Shown here piece after piece: positions 3,620 to 33,386 of a DNA stretch of 33,386 nucleotides (its first letter is position 1; the number at the start of each line of letters is the position of its first letter). The position numbers and the translations under genes are program-made. Source of the stretch: a virus; the IMG/VR virus record IMGVR_UViG_3300050343_000301, positions 1 to 33,386 of that record, one strand, 5' to 3'. Under the pieces are notes generated by a model. That model was not told where the DNA came from. It worked only from the letters and a program-made list of their open reading frames with translations, and ran no database searches.

Positions 3620-3628
3620 ACTATTCCC

Positions 3629-16530: not shown

Positions 16531-17913
16531 ATGAGTATGAGTAAGAAAAAGATTTTACTTTTATCTGATGACATGAGAATGACATCAGGTGTGGCGACCA
16601 TGTCAAAAGAAATGGTCATAGGTAGTGTGGATAAATTTGATTGGGTTCAGTTGGGTGCTGCTATAAAACACCCTGAGTTTGGTAAAATTGTTGATCTTAA
16701 TTCCGATGTACGAAATAAAACAGGAGTAAAAGACGCAAGTGTAAAAATATATCCCTCAAACGGTTATGGTAATATTGAGAGGTTACGGGAATTAATTTCA
16801 ATTGAGAAACCTGACGCAATTTTACATTTTACTGATCCACACTATTGGCAATGGTTATACGACAGTGAGCACGAAATAAGACAACAGATCCCCATTTTCT
16901 TTTACCATATATGGGATGACTTACCAGATCCTTATTATAATAGGGATTACTACGAATCTTGTGATTGGTTAGGTTGTATTTCAAAACAAACCTATGGTAT
17001 AGTTAATAGGGTTGGTATGTCAAATAGGGAGGTCACTCATAAACCATTGAAGAAGTGGCAAGTCAGTTATGTACCTCACGGTATAAATCCTGAAACTTTT
17101 AAACCTGTAGAGGTTGATGATGAAATGAGGAAATTTATACACGGCGACAAAGACTATGATTTTATATTGTTCTTTAATAATAGAAATATTAAACGTAAAC
17201 AACCGTCCGATGTAATATACACATACAAAACATTTTGTGACACACTTACTGAAGAAGAATCAAGTAAATGTTTACTCCTAATGCATACGAGGTCTATAGA
17301 TAAAAACGGAACTGACTTAGTTGCGGTCGTTAATGAGTTGTGTCCTAAGTATGATGTAAAATTTACTAACGACAAGTTTGATCAGGACAAGTTAAATAGA
17401 ATTTATAATACAGTTGATTGTACTATTAACATTGCAAACAATGAAGGTTTTGGTTTGACCACTGCCGAATCTGTAATGTGTGGTACTCCAATAATAGTAA
17501 ATGTCACTGGTGGATTACAGGACCAGTGTGGATTTGAATTGGATGGTAAGTTAATAACGGCCGATGACTACATAGAGATAGGTACACTCCATGACCCTAA
17601 GAAGTGGGAAGGTAAAGTTACTCATGGTGAGTGGGTAAGTCCTGTATGGCCAGCATCAACAACACTAAATGGGTCAGTTAATACCCCTTATATTTTTGAT
17701 GACCGTATTAATCACTATGATGTTGTTTCTTCTATAAGAGAAATGTACAATTTAGGTAGAGATGAAAGAAAGAGACGAGGACTCGTAGGAAGAAAATATA
17801 TGGTAAAAAACTTCTCAACTAAGACTATGTGTAATTCATTAGTTAAAGGTATTGAGAAATCATTATCCAAATTCACCCCTAAGAATAAATTTGAATTATT
17901 TAAAATAACATAA
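16531..17913 (+). CDS. GT-B glycosyltransferase (GT4-like)
   Basis: A 460-residue GT-B-fold glycosyltransferase. The C-terminal half has NEGFGLTTAESVMCGTPIIV, the E-x7-E nucleotide-sugar motif of GT4 enzymes, preceded by DFILFFNNRNIKRKQP, the usual start of the donor-binding domain. The N-terminal acceptor domain begins KKILLLSDDMRMTSGVA. Either of two Met codons (residue 1 or 3) may be the start; the first directly follows the stop of the previous gene. It would transfer a sugar from a nucleotide donor in the cytoplasm, to a host glycan or a phage component. Donor and acceptor are unknown. Confidence 0.88.
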   Translation: MSMSKKKILLLSDDMRMTSGVATMSKEMVIGSVDKFDWVQLGAAIKHPEFGKIVDLNSDVRNKTGVKDASVKIYPSNGYGNIERLRELISIEKPDAILHFTDPHYWQWLYDSEHEIRQQIPIFFYHIWDDLPDPYYNRDYYESCDWLGCISKQTYGIVNRVGMSNREVTHKPLKKWQVSYVPHGINPETFKPVEVDDEMRKFIHGDKDYDFILFFNNRNIKRKQPSDVIYTYKTFCDTLTEEESSKCLLLMHTRSIDKNGTDLVAVVNELCPKYDVKFTNDKFDQDKLNRIYNTVDCTINIANNEGFGLTTAESVMCGTPIIVNVTGGLQDQCGFELDGKLITADDYIEIGTLHDPKKWEGKVTHGEWVSPVWPASTTLNGSVNTPYIFDDRINHYDVVSSIREMYNLGRDERKRRGLVGRKYMVKNFSTKTMCNSLVKGIEKSLSKFTPKNKFELFKIT

Positions 17914-17927
17914 TTAAAAACTACAAT

Positions 17928-18140
17928 ATGAATCAAAAATTAATAGAAATGTTAAGGACGAGTGCGTTGGCAGAGAAATCAAAGGCACTCTTAACTTTAG
18001 ATCTTTTAGGAACTAAAGGGTCGGGTATCGGAGATCACTCAACAGGTGACTTCTATAAAAACGCAGAAGAGGCATTATCAATGCTGGTAGATGCTGACGA
18101 TAAATTATCAACATTGGATAAGTATTTTCCAATAGATTAG
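17928..18140 (+). CDS. small protein conserved among phage glycosyltransferase genes
   Basis: A 70-residue protein with a Lys/Leu-rich N-terminal helix and the distinctive segment GSGIGDHSTGDFYKNAEEAL. The same pattern appears between glycosyltransferase genes in marine T4-like phages, suggesting a linked role. No catalytic motif is recognised. It is 14 bases after one glycosyltransferase and 16 before the next, inside the same transcript. Confidence 0.6.
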   Translation: MNQKLIEMLRTSALAEKSKALLTLDLLGTKGSGIGDHSTGDFYKNAEEALSMLVDADDKLSTLDKYFPID

Positions 18141-18156
18141 GTTTATTTAAAATTAT

Positions 18157-19422
18157 ATGATTAAACAGAAACTATTATTTAGAGGACCAATTAAGACCTT
18201 AAGTGGTTATGGTTCTCACTCAAGAGATTTGTTAAAGTCCTTATATGATATGGACTCATTTGACATATACATTGACAGTTGTAATTGGGGTAAGACCCCC
18301 ATGACTGCTTTAGAACCCGAGGTAAATTTATTTCACACTTGGATAGAGGAAAACATTGTAAGTAGTTTAGATTTCATACCTGACGTGTATATCCAAGTGA
18401 CCGTACCTAATGAATTTCAACGGAAAGGTAAGTATAATATTGGTGTCACAGCGGGGATAGAAACCACCGCAGCACCTAAGGAATGGATAGATGGGATAAA
18501 TAGAATGGATAAGGTTATAACCACATCCACCTTCTCAAGAGATGTTTTACTACAAACCGTCTATAACGAAACAGATAAAGTAACGGGTAAGTTAATCTCT
18601 CAACATAAAATAAATGTAGATTTAGAAGTTCTTCATGAAGGTGTGGATACTTCAATATACTATGAGAAAGAATCAGACTTAGAGTTAGACTTAGAAGATG
18701 ATTTTAATTACTTATTTGTTGGTCATTGGTTAAAGGGTGACATCGGACAAGACAGGAAAGACGTAGGTATGTTAATTAAGTGTTTCTGTGATTCGTTTAA
18801 CGGTGTTGATGATTCTCCTGGATTAATTTTAAAGACATCCAGTGCTAACTTCTCAATTAAACAAAGGGAAGTGATGAGAAAGAAAATACAAAGGATTACA
18901 TCGTCTTATAATAGTCCACCGAAAATTTACTTATTGTTTGGACAACTCACCGATAATGAGATGAATGACTTATATAACCACCCTAAGGTAAAATCAATGG
19001 TAACTCTAACAAAGGGTGAAGGATTTGGAAGACCCCTGTTAGAATTTTCTATGACGGGTAAACCGATAATTGCATCTAATTGGTCGGGTCACAAAGATTT
19101 CCTGCCAATGGATAAGGCAATAATGTTAGGTGGTAAGTTAACCAACGTACATGAGAGTGCCTCAGATGATTTCATACTTAAAGAATCTAAATGGTTTACA
19201 TGTAATTACGGTGAAGTTGTTGAGGTGTTTAAAATTGTGAAAGACAAGTATGAAGAGTTCTTAGAAAAGTCTAAACTTCTTAAAGAAGATAATGAAAGTA
19301 ACTTCTCTTTAGAATCAACGACAGTCAAGTTTAAAGATATTTTAAAATCAGTAATAATAAACGCGGTTAAACCGAAGAAAACTAAATTGGTTTTACCTGA
19401 ATTAAAAAAAATAGAAGAATAG
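18157..19422 (+). CDS. GT-B glycosyltransferase (GT4-like)
   Basis: A 421-residue GT-B enzyme. KGEGFGRPLLEFSMTGKPII is the E-x7-E donor motif. FNYLFVGHWLKGDIGQDRKD begins the C-terminal domain, and LRFRGPIKTLSGYGSHSRDL-like sequence at the N-terminus (LLFRGPIKTLSGYGSHSRD) fits the acceptor domain. It is a distant paralogue of the 16531 enzyme rather than a duplicate. It is followed by the SDR epimerase one base after its stop. Sugar and acceptor are unknown. Confidence 0.88.
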   Translation: MIKQKLLFRGPIKTLSGYGSHSRDLLKSLYDMDSFDIYIDSCNWGKTPMTALEPEVNLFHTWIEENIVSSLDFIPDVYIQVTVPNEFQRKGKYNIGVTAGIETTAAPKEWIDGINRMDKVITTSTFSRDVLLQTVYNETDKVTGKLISQHKINVDLEVLHEGVDTSIYYEKESDLELDLEDDFNYLFVGHWLKGDIGQDRKDVGMLIKCFCDSFNGVDDSPGLILKTSSANFSIKQREVMRKKIQRITSSYNSPPKIYLLFGQLTDNEMNDLYNHPKVKSMVTLTKGEGFGRPLLEFSMTGKPIIASNWSGHKDFLPMDKAIMLGGKLTNVHESASDDFILKESKWFTCNYGEVVEVFKIVKDKYEEFLEKSKLLKEDNESNFSLESTTVKFKDILKSVIINAVKPKKTKLVLPELKKIEE

Positions 19423-19423
19423 T

Positions 19424-20272
19424 ATGAAAATATTAGTAACAGGTGGGAATGGATTTATTGGTTCCAACCTAATTGGTAGGTTACTGAGTGAAGGACATGA
19501 GGTGTCTTCAATTGATAATTTATCCACGGGACTAAAGGAATATGAAATAGATGGGTGTAATTACCATTACAATGATATTGAACAAATCGATTTAGTAGGT
19601 GGTGATTTCGACCTATGTTATCATTTAGCGGCACTGTCGAGGATACAACCCTCGTTCGACGATCCTACAGAAACATTTAGAGTTAATGCGGGTGGTTGTC
19701 AGTTAGTTGCAGATTGGGCTAAGGATAATAATATTAAAGTTGTTTACGCGGGATCGTCTTCAAGATGGTGTAACCCTCAAACCTCACCATACGCAACATA
19801 TAAAAGTACAGGTGAAGACATATTCAAGATGTATCGTACCGCTTATGGTTGTGATTTTGAAATCTGTAGATTTTACAACGTATATGGTCCAAACGAATTA
19901 GTGGACGGTACGTGGGCTGCAGTGATAGGTATATGGAGACATCAGGTTTCTAACGGGGAACCTATTACAATAGTTGGTGATGGAGAACAAAGAAGAGATT
20001 TCACACATGTTATTGATATTGTTGAGGCACTTTATAAAGTGGGTACAGGTAATGAGAAACATGAAGATGCGTGGGAATTAGGGACAGGTATGAATTATTC
20101 AATAAATCAGGTTTACAATATGTTTATTGAAAGATTCGGTGATCATCCAAAAGTCAATATCCCTGACCAACCAGGTAATTATAGATCTACTAAAAGAGAG
20201 AATGATGATACTTTAGATAAATTGGGGTGGTCACCTAAAGATAGATTAGAAGATTACATAAAAACTCTGTAA
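19424..20272 (+). CDS. NAD-dependent nucleotide-sugar epimerase/dehydratase (extended SDR)
   Basis: A 282-residue extended short-chain dehydrogenase. The NAD-binding TGGNGFIG lies at residues 6-13. The catalytic SSS (111-113) and Y123-x3-K127 (SPYATYK) are in place, and RFYNVYGP and GDGEQRRDFTHV follow as in UDP-glucose 4-epimerase-like enzymes. It would interconvert a nucleotide sugar, giving a donor for the neighbouring glycosyltransferases. It is somewhat shorter than GalE (about 338 residues) because of a trimmed C-terminus. Exact substrate unknown. Confidence 0.9.
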   Translation: MKILVTGGNGFIGSNLIGRLLSEGHEVSSIDNLSTGLKEYEIDGCNYHYNDIEQIDLVGGDFDLCYHLAALSRIQPSFDDPTETFRVNAGGCQLVADWAKDNNIKVVYAGSSSRWCNPQTSPYATYKSTGEDIFKMYRTAYGCDFEICRFYNVYGPNELVDGTWAAVIGIWRHQVSNGEPITIVGDGEQRRDFTHVIDIVEALYKVGTGNEKHEDAWELGTGMNYSINQVYNMFIERFGDHPKVNIPDQPGNYRSTKRENDDTLDKLGWSPKDRLEDYIKTL

Positions 20273-20902
20273 ATGAAAATTAGTTACGCAATAACTGTCT
20301 GTAATGAATTCGAAGAAATAAAACGTCTCGTTGAGTTTCTACTTAGGACCAAAAGACCTAAGGATGAAATAGTTGTTTTATACGATCAGAAAAATGGTTC
20401 CGAAGAAGTATCGGAATGGTTAGTCAAACATAATAAGTTACCTAACTTTCAAATGTGGAGAGGTTTCTTCGATGGTCATTTTGGTGAGTGGAAAAATACA
20501 CTTTCAGATTATTGTAATGGTGATTACATTTTTCAAATTGATGCGGATGAAATACCTCATTTAAATTTAATTAACTATCTACCGACGATACTTGAGTCGA
20601 ACCCTAAAAACGAAGTATTCTTAATTTCGAGAGTAAACACTGTTGAAGGTTTGACGGACGATCACATTAAAAAGTGGGGTTGGAACGTAAACTCTAAAGG
20701 GTGGGTAAATTTTCCTGACACTCAGACAAGAATATGGAAAAAAGAAAGTAGGATAAGATGGTACGGTAAAGTACATGAAAGGTTAGTAAACTATAACACA
20801 TATACTAACTTACCTGAGGATGAAACATTTTCACTCATACATCATAAAGATATTAAAAAACAAGAAAGACAAAATAATTATTATGACGAACTACAAAGGT
20901 GA
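20273..20902 (+). CDS. family 2-like glycosyltransferase
   Basis: A 209-residue GT-A-fold protein. MKISYAITVCNEFEEIKRLV is the typical GT2 first strand, and GDYIFQIDADEIPH carries the D-x-D metal site. TRIWKKESRIRWYGKVHERL resembles the end of small GT2 enzymes that act in lipopolysaccharide assembly. The start directly follows the SDR stop. The next gene starts within its last 20 bases. Acceptor unknown. Confidence 0.82.
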   Translation: MKISYAITVCNEFEEIKRLVEFLLRTKRPKDEIVVLYDQKNGSEEVSEWLVKHNKLPNFQMWRGFFDGHFGEWKNTLSDYCNGDYIFQIDADEIPHLNLINYLPTILESNPKNEVFLISRVNTVEGLTDDHIKKWGWNVNSKGWVNFPDTQTRIWKKESRIRWYGKVHERLVNYNTYTNLPEDETFSLIHHKDIKKQERQNNYYDELQR

Positions 20903-21488
20903 TTTAATTGTAAGTAGGTATGAGGAGGACATATCTTGGTTATCAGAGTTTTCTGATTATAGAATTTTTTTATATAATAAGGGGGAACCTATTGAAGATT
21001 CGATTAATTTACCTAACGTTGGTCGAGAAGGTAACACGTATCTAACTCACATAATAAAAAATTATGATAATTTAGGTGAATGGGTATTATTTACTCAAGG
21101 ACATCCATTTGATCACGTTAAAGATTACAAAGAGGTTTTAAAAGAGTTTCCAAACACAAATAGATCGGTGGTTTTTGAAAAACCTAATCAATCACTATTT
21201 TTTAGTAATAGTCATCATTATAAAAGAGTTATACATTCAAAACCAAATGGTTTACCACATCACGGTGGTATGGATATAAATGGTGTTTGGGTAGAACTAT
21301 TTGAAGACCCACCCCTTGAACTATACCCATTTACCGCTGGTGCAATATTTGCGGTTAGTAGAGATACAATCAGAATGAGAAGTGTAGAGTTTTATAAAAG
21401 GGCTAACGAATTGTGTGTTGATGTAGGATTAGGTCCGTGGATCTTCGAACGACTATTCATTTCAATATTTGATGATACTAATAAATAA
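20883..21488 (+). CDS. DUF3431-like protein
   Basis: About 201 residues from the ATG at 20883 (MTNYKGDLIVSRYEEDISW). The frame is open 63 bases further up, but that part overlaps the GT2 gene and looks non-coding. NVGREGNTYLTHIIKNYDN, VLFTQGHPFDHV and FTAGAIFAVSRDTI match the DUF3431 pattern, which is found next to glycosyltransferases in marine phages and in fungi and bacteria and is thought to be glycosyltransferase-related. Its end shares one base with the ATG of the next gene (TAATG). No catalytic role is established. Confidence 0.7.
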   Translation: MTNYKGDLIVSRYEEDISWLSEFSDYRIFLYNKGEPIEDSINLPNVGREGNTYLTHIIKNYDNLGEWVLFTQGHPFDHVKDYKEVLKEFPNTNRSVVFEKPNQSLFFSNSHHYKRVIHSKPNGLPHHGGMDINGVWVELFEDPPLELYPFTAGAIFAVSRDTIRMRSVEFYKRANELCVDVGLGPWIFERLFISIFDDTNK

Positions 21489-22588
21489 TGGACATATCTT
21501 TAGTACTTGCTGTTTTTAATAACTTAGACTATACTAAGAATACCTATGAAAGGGTTAGGGATATTTATCCTGACGCACCTATGGTTATTAGTAGTGGTGG
21601 TTCTACGGATGGTACATTAGATTGGTTACAATCTTTGGATGATGATAACCTTTCCTTTATACATGATGACGACCAATTAACTTTCTCAGACAATTATAAT
21701 TCGGCCATAAAGTTAGTTGATACCGATAAGTTGGTTTTGATTCATAATGATATGGTGATCGGTAAGAATTTTTTAGAGAATCTATCGGAACTGATTGATG
21801 AAAAGTCTCTTATCACGTATACCACTATCGAACCCCCAATTTTTAAAGGACATAAAAGACCTGGTAAAGTTATATTAGAATTGGGTAGAGGATTTAACGA
21901 TTTTAATTATCACTTATTTGACCAATACGTTGACAAAGTTAAGGAAAGAAAGGACTTAGTTAATGGGGGTACATTTTTTATGTCGGGTTATAAGAAAACA
22001 TTTATTGATGTTGGTTTATTTGATGGTTTTACTTTTGATCCTTTTTTCTGTGAAGATGATGATTTCATTATTAGAGCCAAATTAAAAGGTTACTTACTTA
22101 AAACAACAGAATGTGCTGTAGTATATCATTTTGTTTCTAAAACAAGTAGAGTGTTGAGGTCTGAAGAAAGTAAATTAAGTGAACACAGAAACATACGTAA
22201 CTTTATACGTAAATGGGGTATCACAATACCGACATTCAACGAACTGTATTATTGGGAAGATGAAATTTTTAATTACCCAACGTTTAATATGGGTATCGAA
22301 TTGAGGAGTGACAAACACCTATATAAGTTGGAACCTTATTTTGATAAATTGTATTTAGGTGGTACCGCACCCACCGAATATATTGCGAATGAACAACCTA
22401 ATACTAATTACGATTTAAGATCTAAATTTTTATTATGTGATGTTGTAGACGTGATGATTATTGAGACCGAATTAATGAACGAGGAAGATCTTCATATAAT
22501 AAACAAAATCCGATTATCAATTCCACACTACGATGTAGGAGAATATCAAATCGGAAATTTGAAAATCATAATTAAAAAGAAGGTTTAA
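21488..22588 (+). CDS. family 2 glycosyltransferase
   Basis: A 366-residue GT2 enzyme. DISLVLAVFNNLDYTKNT opens the GT-A fold, SSGGSTDGTLDWL is the conserved donor-side motif, and LVLIHNDMV gives the metal-binding segment. FMSGYKKTFIDVGLFD and FFCEDDDFIIRAKLKGY match the acceptor side with an E-D-D motif. The last 110 residues are an extra domain not assigned. It is the final gene of the plus-strand island and is convergent with the minus-strand gene at 22590, only one base away. Confidence 0.85.
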   Translation: MDISLVLAVFNNLDYTKNTYERVRDIYPDAPMVISSGGSTDGTLDWLQSLDDDNLSFIHDDDQLTFSDNYNSAIKLVDTDKLVLIHNDMVIGKNFLENLSELIDEKSLITYTTIEPPIFKGHKRPGKVILELGRGFNDFNYHLFDQYVDKVKERKDLVNGGTFFMSGYKKTFIDVGLFDGFTFDPFFCEDDDFIIRAKLKGYLLKTTECAVVYHFVSKTSRVLRSEESKLSEHRNIRNFIRKWGITIPTFNELYYWEDEIFNYPTFNMGIELRSDKHLYKLEPYFDKLYLGGTAPTEYIANEQPNTNYDLRSKFLLCDVVDVMIIETELMNEEDLHIINKIRLSIPHYDVGEYQIGNLKIIIKKKV

Positions 22589-22589
22589 A

Positions 22590-23033
22590 CTACCCCACTA
22601 AATTAAATAAGATATTGTATTGGTCTTTTGTTTTACCTGCATCTTTAAGGTCGTCCTTAGTGATTACTGGGTGATCCAATTCTATCTCTTTAGTAAGTAA
22701 CTTATTATATTCATTTAAGAATTCTACATACTTAGGATTTTTAACCGTTTCAGTTTTCTTCCCTTTCTTTTTTTCTATTGTTGGTGTTATTTGTACACCA
22801 CCTTCTTCTGTTTTCTCACCAAACTTTTCAATTAGTTCGTTTCTTAGTTCATCAACTTTACCTCTTTCATCTTTTAATTTCTGAGAGAGTTCTCTAAGTT
22901 CATACTTCAATAAGATTGATAGTGGTTGTGCTGCAAAACCTTCATAGATTACTTCACCGTTTTGAGGATTAGTATACCCATTTATTTCTGCGTCCAATTG
23001 TAGGATTTGATCGATTGTTAACTTTGTTGACAT
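22590..23033 (-). CDS. coiled-coil phage protein
   Basis: A 147-residue charged protein starting MSTKLTIDQILQLDAEING. Residues about 40-75 (LKYELRELSQKLKDERGK) look like a coiled coil, and a lysine-rich linker follows (KKKGKKTETVKNPKY). Similar small proteins occur in marine phage genomes near structural genes with no function assigned. It follows the permease gene by 24 bases on the same strand, so it may be co-transcribed with the receptor operon. Confidence 0.55.
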   Translation of the reverse strand: MSTKLTIDQILQLDAEINGYTNPQNGEVIYEGFAAQPLSILLKYELRELSQKLKDERGKVDELRNELIEKFGEKTEEGGVQITPTIEKKKGKKTETVKNPKYVEFLNEYNKLLTKEIELDHPVITKDDLKDAGKTKDQYNILFNLVG

Positions 23034-23057: not shown

Positions 23058-24074
23058 TTATTTAATTGTAAAAGTCAAGTCTAAAGAACTATAGACTATC
23101 ATAATTATTACCCAAACCGAAATGGATAATAAATATTTTTTAATTGGAGTACCAAAATACTGTTGTCCAATATATATACATTTGTGTGTTGGAGATAAAA
23201 GGTAACCTGAATAACACATGGTAAATAAGAATAGAAAATATTGTATTCCCATAATGGAGGTCACTAATGAAACTATCCCTGCGTACTTCCCCGATGACCC
23301 TAATAGAAAAGAACCGATAAAACATAACGTACCAACTAAGAGTATATTATGGTCGGATGTAACCCCTCCTAAATTAGTCTTTATTTCATTACCATATAAT
23401 GAAATAAGATTAGAAACAATAATCACAATACCCACACTTAAAACTAATCTCCATCTAACGTGTTTTAATAATTTACCCCACGAATTGGAGTAACTTACTA
23501 AGTAAAGGGTGAATCCACAAAATAAAGGTAAATAACGATCCGTTAGACCCGCCAATACTAATGTTAGTATGAAGGGTAGGAATATTGAATATATGTTCTT
23601 ATAATTGACCTGATGATGTTTTGGTATTTCAATGTTTCCGTCTTGGAATTTGTAAATGTATACACCTATTACAAGTATAGATATTATAAGTAATGGATAC
23701 ACCATACCCATTAATTCACCATACGTAACACCTAAAATGGCCATAGGTATTATGACTGTTTTTTCTAATGGTGACCATATGTAATAATGGTGTGTTGATA
23801 GATAGTCAATTATTCCGTAATTTTCTCTCCCTTGTTTATCTTTGGGTGCAACGGTGTCGAGTATACCCGCTGAAACCGCAACCCTACCAGGTATGGGTAA
23901 TACCCCACCAAATAAAGATATTAAAAATAAGACGACCTTCTTGGATTTAACTGTTTTTAGTATTAAACTAAATACATCTACCAAATACCCTTTCTCTTTT
24001 AAAATACCCGTTATAACCATTATAAATGAAAGGTATATAAGGAAATGTTGGTTATTTAATATTACATCTATCAT
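23058..24074 (-). CDS. DUF401-type inner-membrane permease
   Basis: A 338-residue protein with roughly nine or ten hydrophobic segments (for example FLIYLSFIMVITGIL, VLFLISLFGGVLPIPG and LLIISILVIGVYIY). SLFGGVLPIPGRVAVSAGIL and the later TSIMGIQYFLFLFTMCYSGY match the repeated halves of DUF401 family membrane proteins, thought to be transporters. The substrate is unknown. The start overlaps the TonB-dependent receptor stop by four bases, so an outer-membrane receptor and an inner-membrane permease are translated as a coupled pair. It is unusual for a phage. The transport direction cannot be inferred. Confidence 0.72.
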   Translation of the reverse strand: MIDVILNNQHFLIYLSFIMVITGILKEKGYLVDVFSLILKTVKSKKVVLFLISLFGGVLPIPGRVAVSAGILDTVAPKDKQGRENYGIIDYLSTHHYYIWSPLEKTVIIPMAILGVTYGELMGMVYPLLIISILVIGVYIYKFQDGNIEIPKHHQVNYKNIYSIFLPFILTLVLAGLTDRYLPLFCGFTLYLVSYSNSWGKLLKHVRWRLVLSVGIVIIVSNLISLYGNEIKTNLGGVTSDHNILLVGTLCFIGSFLLGSSGKYAGIVSLVTSIMGIQYFLFLFTMCYSGYLLSPTHKCIYIGQQYFGTPIKKYLLSISVWVIIMIVYSSLDLTFTIK

Positions 24075-25828
24075 AAATTCATTTTTAAATTGAACAACAC
24101 AGACCTCTTAGGTAAGTCTGTTGATGATCCGGTTATTCTACTTTCATTATTTAGAATATTATAAACGGATACTCCCAAATTAATAGGATTATTTTTATGT
24201 TTAAATAACGTATGGTCATAACCTACAGAGATTATGTTCACTCCCTTGTTGTGGGCATACTGTCTAACATCATTCAAATCGTTTTCAGATAGTTCATCGT
24301 CTTTAATTTGAAATGACCAATCTACCCACAAATTATCCTTACTTATTTTAACGTAGGTTCTAAATGGAGAAACTTTGTTGATTGGTTCATCTGTCGATGT
24401 TTTACCATAAACATATTCTAACCTAGACTTAAGACTAATACCCTTATTAAGTAGGTTATCTTTATTAAACCCCACATTTGATGACCATACTTTTATTTTA
24501 CCTTGATTTACTGTTTGGATGGTATCTGAATTAATGAATATGGTACTTATTGCATCATTCAATAATCTATAATTAAAGTCCACATAGAAACCCCTATTCT
24601 TATATCCAACCCTATATGAGTCTGAGTTTTCCTGTTTAAGATCAGGATTAGGTAGTTGCTCGGCCTTACCCGTTGTAATAGATTGTTTTACCATAAGGTA
24701 GCTAGGTGCATTTAAAGACCTTACATAACTTCCAAAGAAACCCTTCTTACCTATAATCAAGGAACTTTCGAATCCACTGAATGGTTCAATATCTGTAATC
24801 TTTACTGTCTTGTATCCACCACTTACAAACACATTAAACCCTTTAAGTTTTATATCCCACCTAAGTCCTTGTTTGAATGTTTTGTAAAGGTCATTAGGGA
24901 CATAATCAACACCTTCAGTTTGGTAATCAATATGTTCAATTACATTAGATGTATATAGTTCAAGATTATCACTAACCATATATTCACCATTTATAGTGAA
25001 CGAATTTAATCTACTTTTTATTCTTGTTGTTTTGTTGAGTATATTTTCTGAGAAGTTTTGATATGCAAAGTTTACTTTTAGATCCTTATAATCGTACTTA
25101 TGATTAAGTAAAATATATCTCTGTAATTCCCACGTATAGATTTTAGGATCTTGGAAACCATTTATTCTTTCACCACCATTCCATTTATCGGTTCTCTCTA
25201 AATCGTTGGATTGGGTGAAGAGAAAAGTAGTTTTATTTTTATTAGACCATTGATACTCAGTGATTAATGAATTCTGATTATAAGAACTGTGTGGTATCTC
25301 ACCACCCACAGACCTTACATTATCGTTTATAATGCTATTAACCGCAATACCAAACTTACCTTCTTTGTAAGAAATATAATTAGTTGTTCCATTTACACCA
25401 CCATCATAAGATAGTTTTATTGATGATGAGTCGATACCTAACTCTCTATTAATTGTACCACCTATATTACCTCCATCACTAATCCTTATTCTCTTAGTGA
25501 AATTCATAGGTACCCACCCAAAGTATTGATTAGGTCCCGTTCTGAATAATGCACTATTAAACCTTATATCGTTTATGACTTGATCGACTTGGTTACCTGT
25601 GAATCCACCTAAGAAAGGACTTAGTTGACCCGGACTTGTCTGTTGTAATTGTATTGACCTTTCATATATCTTAGGTTCGATATATACTTGTCTAACTTGG
25701 TAGTTAGTTCCTGCAACCACGACAACCTCATCTAAAGTCTTTACTTTTAGTGTATCTACTTTGGTTTGAGAGTATCCTACATTACAAAATAGTAGTGTGA
25801 TTACTATGTAAAAAATAAACTTTCTCAT
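24071..25828 (-). CDS. TonB-dependent receptor-like outer-membrane protein
   Basis: About 585 residues from the Met at 25828; a longer frame adds 12 residues before the signal peptide. MRKFIFYIVITLLFCNVGYSQ is a clear signal peptide. LKTLDEVVVVAG-like sequence (KTLDEVVVVAGTN) is the Bacteroidota-type start of a TonB plug domain, and QVDQVINDIRFNSALFRTG and RIRISDGGNIGGTINRELG continue the plug. The remainder is alternating aromatic/polar beta-strands typical of a barrel, with INLGVSVYNILNNESR near the end as in many TonB receptors. The plug and barrel are short for the family. No separate TonB box or carboxypeptidase-like domain was seen. Substrate unknown. Confidence 0.82.
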   Translation of the reverse strand: MRKFIFYIVITLLFCNVGYSQTKVDTLKVKTLDEVVVVAGTNYQVRQVYIEPKIYERSIQLQQTSPGQLSPFLGGFTGNQVDQVINDIRFNSALFRTGPNQYFGWVPMNFTKRIRISDGGNIGGTINRELGIDSSSIKLSYDGGVNGTTNYISYKEGKFGIAVNSIINDNVRSVGGEIPHSSYNQNSLITEYQWSNKNKTTFLFTQSNDLERTDKWNGGERINGFQDPKIYTWELQRYILLNHKYDYKDLKVNFAYQNFSENILNKTTRIKSRLNSFTINGEYMVSDNLELYTSNVIEHIDYQTEGVDYVPNDLYKTFKQGLRWDIKLKGFNVFVSGGYKTVKITDIEPFSGFESSLIIGKKGFFGSYVRSLNAPSYLMVKQSITTGKAEQLPNPDLKQENSDSYRVGYKNRGFYVDFNYRLLNDAISTIFINSDTIQTVNQGKIKVWSSNVGFNKDNLLNKGISLKSRLEYVYGKTSTDEPINKVSPFRTYVKISKDNLWVDWSFQIKDDELSENDLNDVRQYAHNKGVNIISVGYDHTLFKHKNNPINLGVSVYNILNNESRITGSSTDLPKRSVLFNLKMNL

Positions 25829-25864
25829 AGATTTTAATTTAGATAAAATATAAATAAAAGTCAA

Positions 25865-26530
25865 CTATTTTTCTATAAGAAATATACCAATTCCGTTCCA
25901 AAAATCTTCCATATCTTCACCCTTTGTAAAGATTTCTTTTTGATGTGATACAAACAATTTTTCCTCGTCTATGATTCTATAAAGTGCGCCACTATCCCAA
26001 TTCCAATCGTCCATTATCAGTATTGTCTTGTCTGAGAATTGAGGGATTAATTTTTTAAGTGTAACATACTGATCGTGAAACTTAGTGTCCCCATCATAAA
26101 AAACAATATCTAATTTAGGTAGTTGGGAATAATCAAAGGTTGTATAATCTGTTTTGTATATATCCAACCTATCGGGATCCCCAAACCGCTTAACATTATC
26201 TATGAAGTTTTCCTGTGGTGTTACATCTAACCCTTGTTTTAAGTACGATGCCAATTTTTGACTAACACCCATCGGCATTAAGTTAGGTGATGCGAAGTTA
26301 TCAATACCTATAGCGTGTAGTTTATCATTATTATAAATGGCGGAACAGAACGTTGCACCTCTAAAAACACCAACCTCTAAATACGTCCCCTCTATTGAAC
26401 ATATGTTGTTGAGTAACGATCTTACTTTGTTACTTGTAATTCCGTGAATATTCAATACATCTTGGTTAAGTTTAGATACTTCTCTTTCACCCCACCTAAT
26501 TGAGTCGTCTATGTGTTTAATTAGATCCAT
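25865..26530 (-). CDS. class I SAM-dependent methyltransferase (TylF/MT24-like)
   Basis: A 221-residue methyltransferase. GTYLEVGVFRGATFCSAIY carries the E-x-G-x3-G SAM-binding motif, HAIGIDNFASPN the acidic loop, and LDIVFYDGDTKFHDQYVTL the metal/substrate-side D-G-D motif of TylF-like and methyltransferase-24 enzymes. Such enzymes often O-methylate sugars or small molecules. The start overlaps the U32-like gene by 14 bases and the receptor gene begins 36 bases after its stop. Substrate unknown. Confidence 0.82.
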   Translation of the reverse strand: MDLIKHIDDSIRWGEREVSKLNQDVLNIHGITSNKVRSLLNNICSIEGTYLEVGVFRGATFCSAIYNNDKLHAIGIDNFASPNLMPMGVSQKLASYLKQGLDVTPQENFIDNVKRFGDPDRLDIYKTDYTTFDYSQLPKLDIVFYDGDTKFHDQYVTLKKLIPQFSDKTILIMDDWNWDSGALYRIIDEEKLFVSHQKEIFTKGEDMEDFWNGIGIFLIEK

Positions 26531-27557
26531 TAAGTTTTCTTTTTTTGTGTTCCGACACTATATCACAGTAGTTACAATCCCAACACTGAAATTTACATTT
26601 CTTAATTTTCTTTCTCCACCCTCTCAACTCTTCGTATGGTACACCATCTAAATATGTTTTAGAGGATGACGACAATACCTCTTTACCTTTGGAATATGAC
26701 TCAATAATTTCCATGGTTTCGTTAAGTCTATCAAAACTATCTCTACCATGCATTTTAAAAACGTCAACATGGTTCAGGTATTCATTGAACTCCTCTTTGA
26801 ATGGAGGAATTGTTGCGGTTTTAAAAAAGAATGCATCAACCTCGTCTTCCCATTTGTGTTCACAAGTTACTTTAGATATTTCATGGTGAAAGTATGGTAA
26901 TTCGTTTGGTTTTCTTAAGTTATTGTATGAGTAGTGTTCATCCATAACGGGACACCTACCTAAACAACCTTCATTAGTTAGTAATGCAATTTCAATATAC
27001 CTACCGTGTTTCTGTTGAAACATCAGTTGTGCCCTTCTAATATTTTTCAATTCTTCCACATCCCTCATTAGTATTCTGTCCACATTAATATAATCAAAAC
27101 CTTGTTCGGCGGAATACCAAAAATCTTGTGCGGTATTAACCTTCCTAAGTATAGTATTTTTAATATGCATCTCAGGAAAATGATCCTTTAGACCCATAGC
27201 AACCCAATGACCATGAGGAATTGTCATAGACCTTAACCCTTTCTCATAAAGAGGTTTTAAATTATCAATAAAGAGTTTATAGTTTTCATGTTTTGGTGAT
27301 ACGTTGAAGTTATTAAAGGTCGCACTTACTTTTATTCCCAACGATTCTTGTATCATCATTGCGTTTTCAAAAACAGAGTTTCTATCATTATCATCTATGA
27401 TTGACCCCATTGCGTCTTGAGTAAATGGGGGTATCCTACACGTGAAATATATATCATAAATCCAATCCTTATGTTCCTTTAAAAAAGGATAGAACACATG
27501 TGTGAACGCTTGTTCACTTAACATTGGATTTAACGGTATTGAAAAAATCTTACTCAT
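26517..27557 (-). CDS. U32-peptidase-like TIM-barrel protein with Cys clusters
   Basis: A 346-residue protein. LLTNEGCLGRCPVMDEHYS (Cys198, Cys202) is the U32/UbiU-UbiV-type motif after a TIM-barrel-like series of strands. Cys232 and the C-terminal cluster CKFQCWDCNYC (Cys321, 325, 328, 331) suggest one or two Fe-S clusters. U32-family proteins include oxygen-independent hydroxylases (UbiU/UbiV) and RNA-modifying RlhA rather than true peptidases. It overlaps the radical SAM gene by eight bases and the methyltransferase by 14. The two Fe-S proteins probably work on the same substrate. Function not assignable. Confidence 0.65.
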   Translation of the reverse strand: MSKIFSIPLNPMLSEQAFTHVFYPFLKEHKDWIYDIYFTCRIPPFTQDAMGSIIDDNDRNSVFENAMMIQESLGIKVSATFNNFNVSPKHENYKLFIDNLKPLYEKGLRSMTIPHGHWVAMGLKDHFPEMHIKNTILRKVNTAQDFWYSAEQGFDYINVDRILMRDVEELKNIRRAQLMFQQKHGRYIEIALLTNEGCLGRCPVMDEHYSYNNLRKPNELPYFHHEISKVTCEHKWEDEVDAFFFKTATIPPFKEEFNEYLNHVDVFKMHGRDSFDRLNETMEIIESYSKGKEVLSSSSKTYLDGVPYEELRGWRKKIKKCKFQCWDCNYCDIVSEHKKRKLNGSN

Positions 27558-28548
27558 TCTCTAAACATCCCCCACATATTCCATTACATTCAGTCTTGTA
27601 AAAAACACAATCTAAACAGTCTTGTGGTATTTTATAATTTTTATGATTATCTCTATAAAGGTCATCGAACTCATCTCTTAGAGTTAATATATTATTTTCT
27701 CCTGAAATTTTCAATACATTATCTATCTTAACTTTATCTTGTAAAGGATAACAATGAATAGATGAACCATCAGGAAAAATATCTAATGGCATAAACCCAC
27801 ATATCTTATCGTACCCTTTTACTTTAAAAGTAGCGAAGTCGAATGAGTTTTGTATAATTGATTCTTTTGTTTTACCCTCCCATAAACATGGTGGTACTTG
27901 ACAATCAGATGTAACCCTTATATTGTTGTACATCCCAAATTTAAGTATCTTGGTAACCTCCTTACCCATCTCCTTATTATTAATTAGATAGGTACCGGTT
28001 AGATCTAAACCTAACCTTATTGCATTTAGTTTACCATCTAACGCATGGTACAACCACTTTATGTAATCATACATTTTTCTTTCTTCCCAATCTGACGATA
28101 GTGTTAGTGCAATGAATAATCTTGGATTTTCTTCAAAACCCCACGTATTGGCATACGCCGTGTAGAGTGATAGATAATTCTTTTTAAATAGATTTAATCT
28201 ATTCTTTTCATCTAACTCCGCACCATTAGGTAGGACCCATTGAATATGTCTTATATTAGTGGTTATGTAATCTAATGTTCTCTTACCAAATAATAAGTTA
28301 CTTACAAGATTAACTTTATAACCTCTAGAGATTATATAATCCATTAGTCCAATAAAGTTTGAATGTTGTGTCGGTTCACCACCTAAAATGGTAACCTCTT
28401 CTCTAGAACCTTTTACGTCAAAGTGGTCAAGTAGTTCACCAACCTTTTCTATTGACATTTCACCAAGAGTGTGTTTTAGTCTTGCATCTTCTTTTGTAAA
28501 ACAGAACGAACAACCTTTAGCACATGTACCATTTATTGCTAAATTCAT
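27550..28548 (-). CDS. radical SAM protein with SPASM-like domain
   Basis: A 332-residue radical SAM enzyme. CAKGCSFC at residues 9-16 is the CxxxCxxC cluster motif, and VTILGGEPTQH is the GGE motif. The C-terminus has an SPASM-like arrangement: CGFMPLDIFPDGSSIHCYPL, then DCLDCVFYKTECNGICGGC with five cysteines for auxiliary Fe-S clusters. SPASM enzymes usually modify peptides or proteins, or act on enzyme-bound groups. It is the first gene of the five-gene operon leading to the TonB receptor and permease. No precursor peptide was recognised nearby. Reaction unknown. Confidence 0.88.
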   Translation of the reverse strand: MNLAINGTCAKGCSFCFTKEDARLKHTLGEMSIEKVGELLDHFDVKGSREEVTILGGEPTQHSNFIGLMDYIISRGYKVNLVSNLLFGKRTLDYITTNIRHIQWVLPNGAELDEKNRLNLFKKNYLSLYTAYANTWGFEENPRLFIALTLSSDWEERKMYDYIKWLYHALDGKLNAIRLGLDLTGTYLINNKEMGKEVTKILKFGMYNNIRVTSDCQVPPCLWEGKTKESIIQNSFDFATFKVKGYDKICGFMPLDIFPDGSSIHCYPLQDKVKIDNVLKISGENNILTLRDEFDDLYRDNHKNYKIPQDCLDCVFYKTECNGICGGCLENE

Positions 28549-28558
28549 TTAGTTATTT

Positions 28559-29301
28559 TTAGAAATCTATCTTCAGTGTCAGTGGGGTTGTCTCAATTTC
28601 CTCATCAATCTTTTGTTGTCTACTCATACCTACACCAAATTTCTCATGTCTTACTCTGTGACAATCCGCTATAGTGTTACAATTTTTAACTTTTGTTTCT
28701 AAAAGTTGTTGTTCAAGAAGTAGTGTTGCTAATTTTGTGTTATATGTCGTAACATTAGATATAATCTTATCCACCAATACCTGTTTGTCGATACCCCTAC
28801 CACTTGAAAGTATGTCTATCACAGGTGTCGAGTAGTTACTGTTCTCTTGATATGCGAACGCCTCTCTCTTCTGTTCCTCCCACGTATCTTTCTCTAAATC
28901 AGATGCATCAACCATAAGATCTTTATACCTCGTAAAGAATCTATCTGCAATAACCTTTAGAAGAACCGCCTTATTAAAATCAACACCCAATTGTTTGTCC
29001 TCATCTGTAAGTGTGTATTTAACTTTTTCTTCTTCAGTTTCTGAAGACTCAGCTAAAACAGGTACCATCATCCATCATTGATGAATTTGTTCTTATACTT
29101 ACATAACTTTTATATATGTCCGCAAAAATAAAACCTTTTCCAACGTCCTCAGTTATGACAGACGCATTAAACTTATCCAAATCTAATCTCATGTCATCAT
29201 ATATATCTTCAATACGACCGTAGTAATAATTCATGTAGGATCCAACAACTCTGATGTATCCAGGTATTTCACCAGTTTATTTTAAAAATAATATGTCTCA
29301 T
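28559..29301 (-). CDS. virion-type phage protein, frameshifted
   Basis: One gene in three frames. The ATG at 29299-29301 overlaps the upstream stop (TAATG) and reads MRHIIFKI. After a one-base shift near 29270 it continues TGEIPGYIRVVGSYMNYYYG and DMRLDLDKFNASVITEDVGK. After a second shift near 29065 it continues VPVLAESSETEEEKVKYTL to the end, GMSRQQKIDEEIETTPLTL. Joined, it is about 245 residues, mostly helical and charged. The pattern resembles conserved marine phage structural proteins, but no name is assigned. The shifts look like small insertions rather than decay. Confidence 0.5.
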
Positions 29302-30026
29302 TATAAAAGTTTTTCAGTATCAGGTTTATCTGCCTTACCCAACTTAAGTTGATTTCTCAACGATTCTTCGATTGAGAAACTATTTGTGGTCGCGTTAGAC
29401 ATTAGTTGATTAATGTTCTTATCTATAAATACTGTGTAAGAGGAAGCAAGTGATAAAACTTGTTTCTGTTGTTCGGCCCGACATCATTAAAATAGAGTCT
29501 AAATTACCTGTACCCACTCTACCATACGATATCATATCTAACATGGCTTGTTTTGCCATTCTGACTGTCCAATACTCATGTTCAAATTTATCTTCTAAAT
29601 CTTTATTACCAATGACATCTATTAAGTTAGATCCGTCAGGTAGTTTGGCGTCATCGGTATCTAAGAAATCTTTTATTAGATCAACAAACCCTTGTCTCTC
29701 GATATATGCGGTCCTTTAGGTTTCTTTTAAACTTTCTAAGATCAATCCTCATATCGGCAATATTAAGATCAACCAATTGTTTTCTTTTCGGATCAGTAAG
29801 AAATTCTTTACTCTCCTCTTGTATCTGTATTTCTAAATCTTGTTTTTGTACAGTGTACTCTAAATGTTCCACCGCATCTTCACGACCTCTAAGTTCGAGT
29901 AACCACTGTTTTAGTTTTGCCATATGGGGTTATTTGTGCTCCCCCAACAAAAGTTTCTGCCTTATATCTTGGTAGTGCGAACGACACCTGTTCCGCTATT
30001 TCTATGAGTTTAGAGTTTGCACCCAT
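29301..30026 (-). CDS. conserved virion-type phage protein, frameshifted
   Basis: One gene in several frames. It reads MGANSKLIEIAEQVSFALPR, ETFVGGAQITPYGK, then after a shift near 29930 KLKQWLLELRGREDAVEHLE and, after one near 29700, ERQGFVDLIKDFLDTDDAK and HEYWTVRMAKQAMLDMIS. After one near 29475 it ends EQQKQVLSLASSYTVFID and KPDTEKLL at 29301. Removing one base in AAAA, one in ATATAT and one in GGG restores a single frame of about 240 residues. An upstream ATG at 30051 would give MKTLNTKE with one more insertion, so the true start may be there. The pattern is typical of marine T4-like phages. Confidence 0.55.
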
Positions 30027-30112
30027 CTCTTTCGTATTTAAAGTCTTGCATATAATAAAATTTTACTATAATATAAGTATAAAAAAAGTATTAAATAAAG
30101 TGTAAAATGGTA

Positions 30113-31228
30113 TTATTCTCTCCAACCACAATGACCTGAAGATGTACCCCGCATTCACTGCTGGTGGGAGACCCGCCGGATTTAAAACACCTGTGTCTGT
30201 TTGATAATACATCTTCCAACTATCGTTATTTTGAAGACTACTACCATAACAACCTAACATGTATTGCCAATCCTGTCCCATTGCGAAATTCTCTTCACCA
30301 CAATTAGATCTTAACTTAGAAACATTACCAATATTGGTATCTGTAGATGTATCCCATCTTCTCAAATTGTAACCACCTTGGTAAGATCCCTCATTACCGG
30401 CATAACCCTTACCAACTTTAGACGCAATACCTTTTTGTTGTCCGTGCTGACCATGAACTTGATGAACTTGATATAGTCTCCGTAGAGAATTCCATTTTTA
30501 TACTACTTGTACTCCATCCATATCCATGGGTTTCATTACAAAAAGAACTCGCTCCACCACTACTACTTATCGAGGTTACCCCGTAGTTTGTTATTGTCGT
30601 TTCATTACTTAAATTAAATTTATCTACCTCAGTTCTGTTACCCGCAAAAATCCAAGCAAACTCATGTTCTTTCCACATGGTTCCACAATCGGACCTACTA
30701 TATTGTAAGTCGTGGTTAGATTGGTGTGCATAATTAGTATCGGTCATCATGTTAACCGCCGAAGTTGTGTTACTATGTAGGGTTGTTGGTCCTTTGTGTG
30801 CACTATCGGTGTTTACGGACCACATATAAAAATATAGATTTACTACACGCACCTGAAGTATAGTTTGCAGGGTAATCTAATAACTCACCAATGTGAGTTG
30901 TCTGATCGGTTGCGTTGGTTGCCTTGTGTACATTCTTCCAAGGTGAACTTGATTTGTATCCACCAGCCATATACGAATAATTAATTATTTGTCTGTACTT
31001 AAAGTTAGTTCCTTCATTCTGTTGTGCCGATATTCGTTCCCAACCATTTTCTATATTTGAAACACCAGTATAAACCATAAGGTAACTTGTGTGTTCGGAT
31101 GATTCTTCTAAGAATAGAGAACCAGATAATGGGTTCGACGGTCTCTGTGACTTAACACCTTTTGGTGGTCTTGCAGTGACTCTGTCCACTTTAAGTGAAC
31201 CACTAACGGACATATTTTCGTATATCAT
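30113..31228 (-). CDS. propeller-like virion protein, copy 1, frameshifted
   Basis: Starts MIYENMSVSGSLKVDRVTAR and ends TSSGHCGWRE. The reading passes through at least three frames, shifting near 30840, 30450 and 30140. Blade-like repeats are visible: KNVHKATNATDQTTHIGELL, DYPANYTSGACS, EFAWIFAGNRTEVDKFNLSN and QDWQYMLGCYGSSLQNND. The motif of a short strand, gap, T-x-V-x-K-F-N-x-x-N-E-T recalls Kelch-type beta-propellers. Joined it is about 370 residues. It is probably a tail fibre or other surface virion protein. Copies 2 and 3 follow upstream with 12-base gaps. Confidence 0.55.
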
Positions 31229-31240
31229 ATTCTTTTTATT

Positions 31241-32374
31241 TTATTCTCTCCAACCACAATGTCCAGAGGAAGTCCCCGGGTTTACCGCGGGATTTAAACC
31301 TGTAACACTTGTAGTTCCTGTGTCTGTTGCGTACGTGAATTTCCACGAATTATTATTTTGTAAACCATTATAATTACCTAACATATACTTGCCAATCCTG
31401 ACCCATAGTAAAGTTTTCTTCACCACAATTTCCGTCAGGTTTCACGACGTTACCAATATTTGTGTCTGTTTGATTACTCCATCTTCTCAAGTTGTAACCT
31501 CCACTATATGAACCTTCATTACCGGCATAACCTTTACCAACTTTAGAACTAATCCCTTTCTGTTGTGAGTGATTACCCCCAACGATCCGAGGTTGCAAAT
31601 GTTTCAGTTGCGAAGTTTAGTTTAAACACCAGCACTTGAAGTCCAACCATAACCATGAAGTTCATCTGAAAATGCGGAACCACCGTCACTACCGTTTATT
31701 GTTGTTAATGTATATGCGGTATGTAAAGATTCCGTGGTTAAATTAAATAACTCAACAGTGGCACTGAACCACCACTAAAAAGATATGCCATTTCTGTTTC
31801 CTTATGCATCGTACCTAAATCACTTCTTGCTATAGTTAGTATCCATCGCCGCAGTATGTGCATAGTTGGTGTCGGTTACCATATTTATCGCAGATGTATA
31901 TGTACCATGTACATTACTCGCACTCTTCCATGCACCATCATTATTAACAGACCATACGTAGAAAATAGTTCTACTACACGCTCCTGAAGTATATGATGCA
32001 GGATAATCCAACAACTCACCCAAGTGTGTTGTCTGATCTGTAGAGTTTACCGTCTTGTGTACGTTCTTCCAAGGTGAACTGAGGATTTATACCCTCCCGC
32101 CAGATATGAGTAGTTTATTATCTGATTGTACCTGAAACTCGTTTTACCAAAATTACTTTGATTCGCAATTCTCTCCCATCCACCATCGTTTCCGTTACCC
32201 GTGTAAACCATCAGAGAAACTATTGTCAAAAACTACCCGAGGTCGTCATTTCTAAGAACATAGGGACCCTTTTTCTGGTGAGGAAGGTCTATCCGCCTTT
32301 GCAAACCTGAGGGTGGTCTTGTTAGGTCCTTGTCCTCTTAACGACCCACTAATTTCTAAATTTTCAAATATCAT
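31241..32374 (-). CDS. propeller-like virion protein, copy 2, frameshifted
   Basis: Starts MIFENLEISGSLRGQGPNKT and ends TSSGHCGWRE, clearly homologous to copies 1 and 3 over most of its length. At least four frame changes are needed (near 32240, 32080, 31830 and 31400). A two-base difference against copies 1 and 3 is visible directly near 32085, in the conserved stretch that encodes the start of the GGYKSS motif. Conserved segments include MGELLDYPASYTSGACS and VSNVHGTYTSAINMVTDTNY-like sequence. A TATTTAT box lies four bases before the ATG. Likely a virion surface protein. Confidence 0.55.
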
Positions 32375-32378
32375 ATCT

Positions 32379-32385
32379 ATAAATA
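32379..32385 (-). promoter_or_regulatory. TATTTAT element before propeller copy 2
   Basis: Minus-strand ACTATTTATAGATATG: the heptamer is four bases before the ATG at 32374, within the 12-base gap after copy 3. Same spacing as before the 4096 and 7938 genes. Confidence 0.3.
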
Positions 32386-32386
32386 G

Positions 32387-33386
32387 TTAATTTCTCCAAC
32401 CACAATGTCCTGATGATGCACCTGCGTTAACACCTGGTGCTAACCCTGCAGGATTTACCGTACCCGTATCTGTCGTATATGAGAATTTCCAACTTGTATT
32501 TGTTTGACCTGTACCATCGTATGTTGCTAACATGTATTGATGGTCTTGTCCTAATGTGAAGTTCTCTTCTCCACAATTTTGCATGGGGTTTAGGTACATT
32601 ACCTATATTGGTTTCAGTAAAGACGTCCCACCTTCTCAAATTGTAACCCCCATTATATGTACCTTCATTTCCACAATACCCTTTACCAACCTTAGAACTT
32701 ATCCCTTTCTGTTGTCCACTAGACGCCCATGAGGATGCCCTTGTCTCGAACACATCAGTAGCAAAGTGACATTTGTTTCCACTTTCAGAACCGTACCCGT
32801 AACCATAATTTTCATCAGAGAATCCTGATGAACCTAATGTACTCGTAATGGATGAATGTTGTTGTTACATATGGTGACCCACCAGGATAATAAGTGGTAT
32901 ACATTGTCTCATTTGTTAAATTGAATTTCTCTACTGTTGCTACCGATCCACCAAAAACATACGCAAACTCCGTTTCCTTAAACAGGGTTCCGCAATCATC
33001 CCTCGCATTTAATAAATCCCACTTAGATTGGTGGGCGTATGTTGTTTCATTCACCATATCAATACCTGATGTGTGTGTTGAGTGTATTGTTAGTTGCGCC
33101 TTTATGACCACCATCCGTATTTGTTGACCATAAGAAATAATTTAGTTTTACTACACGCCCCTGAGGTATAGTTTGCAGGGTAATCTAATAACTCACCTAA
33201 GTGAGATGTTTGGTCGGTTGCGTTAATTGTTTTATGTACATTCTTCCAAGGTGAACCTGACTTATATCCACCTGCCAAATATGAATAGTTTATTATTTGT
33301 CTGTATTTGAATCCTGTTCTGTCAGTATCTTGCGAACCCACTGGTTCCCAACCATCATCATAATTAGATGAACCAGTGTATGTAAC
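32387..33386 (-). CDS. propeller-like virion protein, copy 3, partial and frameshifted
   Basis: The 3' part of a third paralogue; the start lies beyond the window. It ends SSGHCGWRN, like the other copies. Reading needs frame changes near 33110, 32830 and 32580. Conserved segments include RQIINYSYLAGGYKSGSPW, LGELLDYPANYTSGACS and EFAYVFGGSVATVEKFNLTN. Its DNA matches copy 1 closely in the segment for LGELLDYPANYTSGAC, which suggests recent duplication or gene conversion. A virion surface role is inferred. Confidence 0.55.

Follow-up and report, generated by a model that had tools for sequence, protein, structure and literature searches.

Can a phage provide its host with a nutrient-uptake route that crosses both membranes? 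This question is raised by two adjoining genes in a virus record of 33,386 bases (IMG/VR record IMGVR_UViG_3300050343_000301; this whole stretch is called the window below), of which one encodes a compact TonB-dependent receptor (TBDR) and the other a DUF401-type inner-membrane permease. A sequence-only reading of the window had proposed a phage-borne receptor-permease pair with a four-base overlap, without giving a strand; both genes lie on the minus strand, and the overlap was confirmed at 24071-24074. It was found that related permeases in viral contigs adjoin either a TBDR or an unrelated outer-membrane protein predicted to form a 12-strand barrel, and that one of these partners replaces the other at gene boundaries. 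The explanation we favor, with a probability of about 0.6, is that the pair is a phage-encoded trans-envelope uptake pathway that works through the host TonB and has exchangeable outer-membrane parts. The features on which the following sections depend are:

23058-24074, minus strand: inner-membrane permease, DUF401-type, 338 amino acids, recognized by Pfam, PHROG 14035 and hydrophobic segments.
24071-25828, minus strand: compact TBDR, 585 amino acids, with a hydrophobic N terminus, a TonB box, a shortened plug and a predicted 22-strand barrel.
25718-25735, minus strand: TonB-box-like motif LDEVVV, residues 32-37 of the receptor, located by alignments.
25472-25666, minus strand: plug core, residues 55-119 of the receptor, the region best matching Bacteroidota receptors.

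The strictness of the pairing was evaluated by running permease, barrel and receptor profiles over viral loci. The sequence-only reading had suggested looking for the same pair in related phage contigs, and it was found in seven further viral contigs, with receptors 99-100% identical and the permease adjoining in each; a further alignment (A7), of four cellular receptors and the window receptor, retrieved 21 viral loci, including 14 new ones with TBDRs 42-53% identical. Counting the window, 22 distinct contigs have the TBDR, with the permease adjoining in 21, and 26 have the 12-strand protein, with the permease adjoining in 24; the three unpaired contigs (L218, L127 and L132) all end at a contig edge. 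This recurrence bears out the proposal of matched outer- and inner-membrane genes. The TBDR gene precedes the permease gene in the window lineage, L205-L212 and L217, and follows it in L213-L216; the barrel gene precedes it in 23 contigs and follows it in one, L131. Because two unrelated outer-membrane proteins that bear TonB-box-like motifs are each found in both orders, the coupling is stronger than the sequence-only reading could have known.

The exchange of one partner for the other was seen most directly in close relatives of the window. A permease scan gave 19 loci, of which 7 have a TBDR before the permease, as in the window, and 12 have a protein of 285-293 amino acids instead, with the same kinds of flanking genes on both sides whichever partner is present. 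A blastn comparison of the window with contig L010 gave 98.2% identity over 29100-25835 and 96.8% identity over 24056-21401, on either side of the following segment:

24057-25834, minus strand: segment differing from L010, corresponding to the receptor gene; L010 has the gene for a 285-amino-acid 12-strand barrel instead.

Contigs L018, L020 and L025 break from the window at nearly the same points, and the permeases of the window and L010 are 98% identical. A tree was made of 44 permeases that had been hand-chosen to thin near-copies, using a quick method that gave long-branch warnings (for L131 above all); on this tree the partner labels need 5 changes if gene order is ignored and 6 if it is counted, the starred branches alone force at least three changes for the barrel and two for the TBDR, and the lone permeases cluster in a single group. 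As a module, the outer-membrane gene can be exchanged at gene boundaries, which would mean that either both partners carry the same solute or the permease is broad in what it accepts. Among gene pairs more than 75% identical and with a proportion of synonymous differences (pS) above 0.01, the ratio of nonsynonymous to synonymous substitution rates (dN/dS; saturated dS gave no value) lay in the ranges 0.05-0.14 (receptor), 0.03-0.12 (barrel) and 0.03-0.10 (permease); these values show that all three genes are under purifying selection in close pairs. We also noted, by eye, a promoter-like string GTTGACT...TAAAT before both alternative outer-membrane genes (window 25829-25866, L010:7106-7155 and L020:7103-7155).

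The window receptor starts at the ATG at 25828 and stops at 24071, with an alternative in-frame TTG start possible at 25864. Its N terminus was judged hydrophobic by eye, with a helix predicted at residues 2-14, and the LDEVVV motif is presumably a TonB box, as in other TBDRs. In a blastp search, the receptor aligned approximately end to end with two cellular receptors of 744 and 689 amino acids (23% identity; E 6e-20 and 1e-17), which are 42-43% identical to it in the plug core, whereas alignments with other cellular open reading frames (ORFs) were partial and mostly in the plug region. Both the stretch ahead of the plug core and the GSxxYGSDALGG loop are shortened, so that the plug has about 28 residues fewer than that of the 689-residue cellular receptor L181 (18+2+8 alignment columns), in agreement with the compact plug described by the sequence-only reading. 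In common with TBDRs such as ChuA/ShuA, BtuB, FrpB and FecA, the receptor has a TonB box, the plug-core motifs GNQ, IR.N and R.GPNQY, and 22 long strands, as counted in a weak AlphaFold2 model; it differs in sharing only about 23% full-length identity with cellular TBDRs, in contrast to the 42-53% shared with its phage relatives. All 50 listed Foldseek matches of this model in the PDB are TBDRs by name, and they include haem and iron receptors.

Family searches were less informative. The Pfam Plug family (PF07715) matched the receptor at E 0.014, below the gathering score, and Pfam gave nothing above threshold for it or for its relatives L205, L212, L213 and L214; there was also no PHROG match. 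Sequence searches of the PDB with single proteins gave no match, and profile searches of the PDB gave nothing usable: two nanobodies (E 0.4-0.6) in one search, one invasin (E 0.007) in another and no match in a third. From the blastp alignments, the alignment motifs, the strand count in the weak model and the Foldseek matches, the window receptor is taken as a compact TBDR. The TonB boxes of the aligned rows differ by group (LKEVVVV in L205-L212; LxPVxV in L213, L214 and L216), which, as far as sequences can indicate, may reflect fitting to different hosts. A search of 296 genomes from the phylum of a Flavobacteriales metagenome-assembled genome (MAG) matched the receptor at E 0.001 or below in 18 of them, nearly all partially, and no receptor was found in six genomes that hold relatives of the barrel. 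A tblastn search with the receptor and the barrel against 50,697 phage records gave zero matches; within phages, metagenomic viral contigs are thus the only source in which this analysis found either one.

The permease exceeds the Pfam gathering score for DUF401 (PF04165; E 3e-13, 50.3 bits against 24) and belongs to PHROG 14035 (2.7e-80). Its match to TIGR00529 has an E value of 4e-18 but a score of 65.9 bits, far under the cut-off of 378.4, and it falls outside that family as defined; a match to CitMHS is weak and sub-threshold. The phage permeases are further set apart from the DUF401 family by the motifs HHYYxWSPLEK and SPxHKC, which are present in 13 of 13 aligned phage sequences, and these two SPxxK-like motifs would fit a ligand that is anionic or chelated. 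Among the same 50,697 phage records, the permease matched nine, all of Synechococcus phages.

The 285-residue protein that takes the place of the receptor is unrelated to the TBDR and carries a TonB-box-like motif near its start. Its model has 12 strands with high confidence (predicted local distance difference test score, pLDDT, of 89.5; alignments A4 and A6), with residues 51-82 confidently placed ahead of strand 1. The nearest solved folds are FapF (5o65_C, Z 23.9) and a COG4313 channel (4rl8_C, Z 22.1, rmsd, the root-mean-square deviation, of 2.7 over 214 residues), with which the barrel aligns from residues 49 and 70 on, respectively; lower structural matches were KdgM, NanC and autotransporter barrels. 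In predicted strand number the protein agrees with the COG4313/Phenol_MetA_deg channels, and three phage barrels scored 19.1-21.9 bits against Phenol_MetA_deg (PF13557), just under its gathering score of 22. It differs from the COG4313 channels in having the TonB-box-like motif and, in some cellular relatives, a TonB gene beside it. In the COG4313 structure paper (PMC4493636), the channel lumen is described as occluded by the N terminus, and the word TonB is absent from the text.

A scan of genome contigs gave 44 cellular loci with barrel homologues, 26-60% identical in the best segment, from Planctomycetota, Verrucomicrobiota, Myxococcales and others. For the motif counts, as for alignment A6, 10 phage rows and 33 of the 44 cellular loci were used. 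A TonB-box-like pattern between the signal peptide and the barrel was present in 34 of these 43 rows, compared with 9.6 +- 2.6 (maximum 18) in 2,000 shuffles, and a strict form was present in 21 of 43, compared with a shuffled mean of 0.12 and a maximum of 3. The barrel profile matches in 42 cellular loci, and in 11 of these a TonB-type gene sits immediately next to the barrel gene with the same orientation (L137, L139, L141, L146, L150, L151, L152, L165, L166, L169 and L171), and a twelfth lies 5 kb from the barrel in L136. Seven of these genes served to build the TonB-type profile and so match it by construction; these seven are independently confirmed by Pfam TonB_C (E 1e-18 to 8e-27). Quite apart from phages, the cellular 12-strand barrels beside TonB genes are candidates for a new bacterial family of TonB-dependent outer-membrane proteins. 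That the phage 12-strand partner and its cellular family as a whole make up a second class of TonB-dependent outer-membrane transporter, built otherwise than on the 22-strand barrel, so that two unrelated TonB-driven machines, exchanged one for the other, would fill one role in the phage pathway, is a more tentative proposal, which we hold to be possible and somewhat doubtful.

Neither the permease nor the compact TBDR was found in the flanks of the cellular barrels (0 of 42 loci; in 33 of them both flanks extend for at least 900 bases); with no permease there, the pair appears to have been assembled in phages. At about 60% identity with the phage barrel, the closest homologue lies at L134:6001-6864 on a Sphingobacteriales MAG contig that ends 343 bases later. 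Either this is the closest relative detected in cells, or the MAG contains phage DNA; a permease beyond the contig end is possible.

An assembly chimera of phage and flavobacterial chromosome would make the pair an artifact, and the many frameshifts of the window at 29-33.4 kb relative to a homologous phage record could be cited in its favor. However, the same pair is present in the seven other viral contigs; the window aligns unbroken over 21.4-29.1 kb with L014, L015 and L016 (the first two of which are possibly one virus); and no phage-type permease turned up among 150 genomes from the family to which a Flavobacteriales MAG belongs, in a search without a positive control. In the phylum of that MAG, DUF401 exceeded the cut-off in 3 of 296 genomes, all partially (2 of 14 control genomes were positive), and with DUF401 so rare and partial there, such a host seems an unlikely recent source of the permease. 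A chimera is scarcely credible, and we rejected it on the contig-level evidence that the junction recurs across contigs, which would otherwise all have to contain one common error. The sequence-only reading had named two observations that would count against it, namely reads that break at the operon edges and a flavobacterial chromosome without phage homologues; both are contradicted, to the extent that contigs can show it.

The outer-membrane gene might instead serve in superinfection exclusion or receptor replacement, by which the cell surface would be changed, TonB occupied or the receptor of competitors replaced, with the permease as a co-transcribed passenger. The lambdoid phage PA-2 encodes the porin Lc, and the Llp protein of phage T5 blocks FhuA; a FhuA-Llp structure is among the listed Foldseek matches of the window receptor, and repeated exchange of the outer-membrane gene next to related permeases is what might be seen with genes that alter the cell surface. 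However, this account leaves unexplained that the permease adjoins in 45 of 45 viewable contigs, whichever the gene order and whichever of the two unrelated proteins is present, and it is at odds with partners of just two kinds and with strong purifying selection, measured over the whole outer-membrane gene, in close pairs; the blocking of superinfection that the sequence-only reading had suggested draws no support from these data, and we consider this account rather unlikely. It is also unlikely that the two genes are auxiliary genes that occupy a permissive cargo slot near structural genes without a joint function: the varied genes adjoining the lone permeases are what such a slot would give, but not the recurrence of the pairing with either of two unrelated proteins and in either gene order, nor the absence of such a permease from the 42 cellular barrel flanks, which indicates that the pair was built in phages. 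A last alternative keeps the two proteins together and reverses the flow, the barrel or receptor and the permease secreting a compound and the TonB box merely gating the channel. FapF, the solved fold nearest to the barrel (Z 23.9), is an amyloid exporter, and DUF401 could transport in either direction; however, the TBDR that occupies the same place is a member of an importer family, and the COG4313 channels are proposed to be uptake channels (PMC4493636), so that export appears improbable.

Several observations weigh against an uptake pathway of two coupled parts. Of 281 permease loci, 80 were kept, of which 7 have a TBDR, 15 a barrel and 57 neither partner (some of the latter are also cut near the gene), and one (L050) could not be judged; the permease therefore does not need a partner and can stand alone. 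By eye, the genes flanking the 57 lone permeases are varied and none resembles an outer-membrane protein; endonuclease V, tail-fibre-assembly-like and transaldolase genes lie near the lone permease in named phages. Many of the paired contigs are near-copies, so that the independent lineages are far fewer than the counts. The receptor model has a mean pLDDT of 51.7, with residues 1-132 below 50 and the plug unresolved. FapF, COG4313, KdgM and NanC are channels and exporters that are not known to be TonB-driven; the TonB-box pattern was devised after the sequences had been viewed, so that its effect size means more than a p-value; and 9 of the 43 rows lack it, including L137 and L141, two of the seven loci behind the TonB-type profile, despite their adjoining TonB gene. 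In a literature search judged from titles and abstracts where phage was matched, no function was found for DUF401. Finally, the family of a ferritin/Dps-like gene that lies between the phage TBDR and connector genes in L213 (6849-7286; E 2.8e-23) was found in 3 of 25 searched records (L213, L214 and L216, with L215 outside the search), all of one lineage.

The proposed uptake pathway would operate in the following way. During infection, the phage would make both the outer-membrane receptor and the permease, and the receptor would dock by its TonB box to the host TonB-ExbB-ExbD complex. Energised by TonB, it would pump a scarce solute into the periplasm, from which the DUF401-type permease, presumed to act as a secondary transporter, would move the solute into the cytoplasm; the DUF401 family lies near CitMHS in the ion-transporter superfamily. 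The outer-membrane part would be exchangeable, being either the compact TBDR or the small 12-strand barrel with its TonB-box-like motif. In phages with a lone permease, such as those of Synechococcus, host porins could admit the solute and the permease would suffice. What the analysis shows is the gene pair in phage DNA, its recurrent partnering, the swap, the purifying selection on the genes and their homologies, and we infer expression in infection, energising by TonB, inward transport and a substrate shared by both proteins.

The leading guesses for the substrate are a chelated metal, among which iron comes first, and a small organic anion. ORFs like the ferritin/Dps gene of L213 are present in L214, L215 and L216. 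With the ferritin-like gene restricted to a single lineage, iron amounts to no more than a lead: this gene and the haem and iron receptors among the structural matches stand against 22 of 25 records that have no such gene (some being fragments), and we did not adopt iron as the settled substrate.

The genes around the pair in the window are as follows:

21488-22588, plus strand: glycosyltransferase gene, convergent with the pair, at the end of the conserved block.
22590-23033, minus strand: downstream neighbor, 147 amino acids, with a weak PHROG 1401 match (5e-6); kept with either outer-membrane partner.
25865-26530, minus strand: methyltransferase-like upstream neighbor, matching the C-terminal part of PHROG 1458.
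26517-27557, minus strand: upstream neighbor, matching the N-terminal part of PHROG 1458.
27550-28548, minus strand: radical SAM (S-adenosylmethionine) protein, within the conserved neighborhood.
28559-29071: PHROG 1604 homologue, a neighbor with phage homologues.

Farther from the pair, the window has a thymidylate synthase gene and phage glycosyltransferase genes. Cyanophage S-H25 has PHROG 1458 as one undivided gene, two positions ahead of its lone permease; the gene in between encodes endonuclease V, and PHROG 1417 is common to the two genomes as well. The stretch 25865-28548, with its radical SAM gene and the two genes that match the N-terminal and methyltransferase-like C-terminal parts of the single S-H25 gene, is possibly a modifying enzyme set. 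By eye, a gene resembling the window radical SAM gene is present in L205, L206, L208-L211, L217 and L218 and does not precede the pair in L212-L216. On the plus strand, 16531-22588 encodes glycosyltransferases, a nucleotide-sugar epimerase and a DUF3431 protein and is convergent with the pair. Beside the window receptor, no further receptor-like, SusD-like or ABC (ATP-binding cassette) gene was recognized. Near the pair in two phage groups there is a gene for a small membrane-like protein of 110-116 amino acids with a YWTNYN motif (L212:4257-4589, and 3537-3887 in each of L213, L214 and L216), for which Pfam gave nothing in the two cases tested. At the right end of the window (29066-33386), numerous small frameshifts interrupt the genes when they are compared with the longer homologous ORFs of phage record G450 (L221); this end looks rich in indel errors, and the pair region looks intact.

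The phage-borne location claimed by the sequence-only reading was upheld: the window is a virus record, the pair has phage neighbors, and structural genes are present in some related records. The tail sheath family PF04984 was found in 1 of 10 records in one set and 4 of 10 in another, namely in the records of L052 (barrel), L211, L214 and L216 (TBDR) and L089 (lone permease). It was not found in the records of L005, L012, L013, L020, L021, L023, L130, L131 and L133, nor in those of L205, L206, L208, L212 and L217, all of which may be fragments (the window itself was not searched). The T4 capsid family PF07068 was found in 0 of 10 records, but the controls also gave 0, and this result is uninformative. 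In L213, head-tail adaptor and head-closure genes lie downstream of the pair. Judging from relatives and shared families, the window lineage is probably T4-like, although no sheath was found in L005, the closest record tested.

The sequence-only reading knew of no described phage system of this make-up. A search, mainly of the open literature through titles and abstracts, found no phage receptor-permease pair and nothing comparable on phage receptors or porins, so that this claim stands for the pair; for a receptor by itself it does not, since a putative SusC-type TBDR, suggested to raise nutrient uptake, has been reported in the megaphage Mar_Mega_1 (PMC9723777). The likeness is a TBDR in a marine phage genome; the retrieved passages of that paper present it as an annotation only and mention no paired permease or exchange of partners.

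Phages carry single uptake genes, and cyanophage PstS is a phage-borne auxiliary gene for nutrient uptake. The pair proposed here would resemble PstS in raising the nutrient import of the host from a phage-borne gene; it would differ in that PstS adds to a host transporter, whereas the pair would cover both membranes with phage genes. If this is true, the virus would re-plumb the nutrient import of the cell and not its metabolism alone, with a route across both membranes in T4-related phages, and the natural one-gene swap offers a clean way to test the requirements of the shared permease. TonB-driven transporters are commonly viewed as 22-strand barrels; if the small barrel is TonB-dependent, this view would need revision, and an uncharacterised family of cellular proteins would gain a function.

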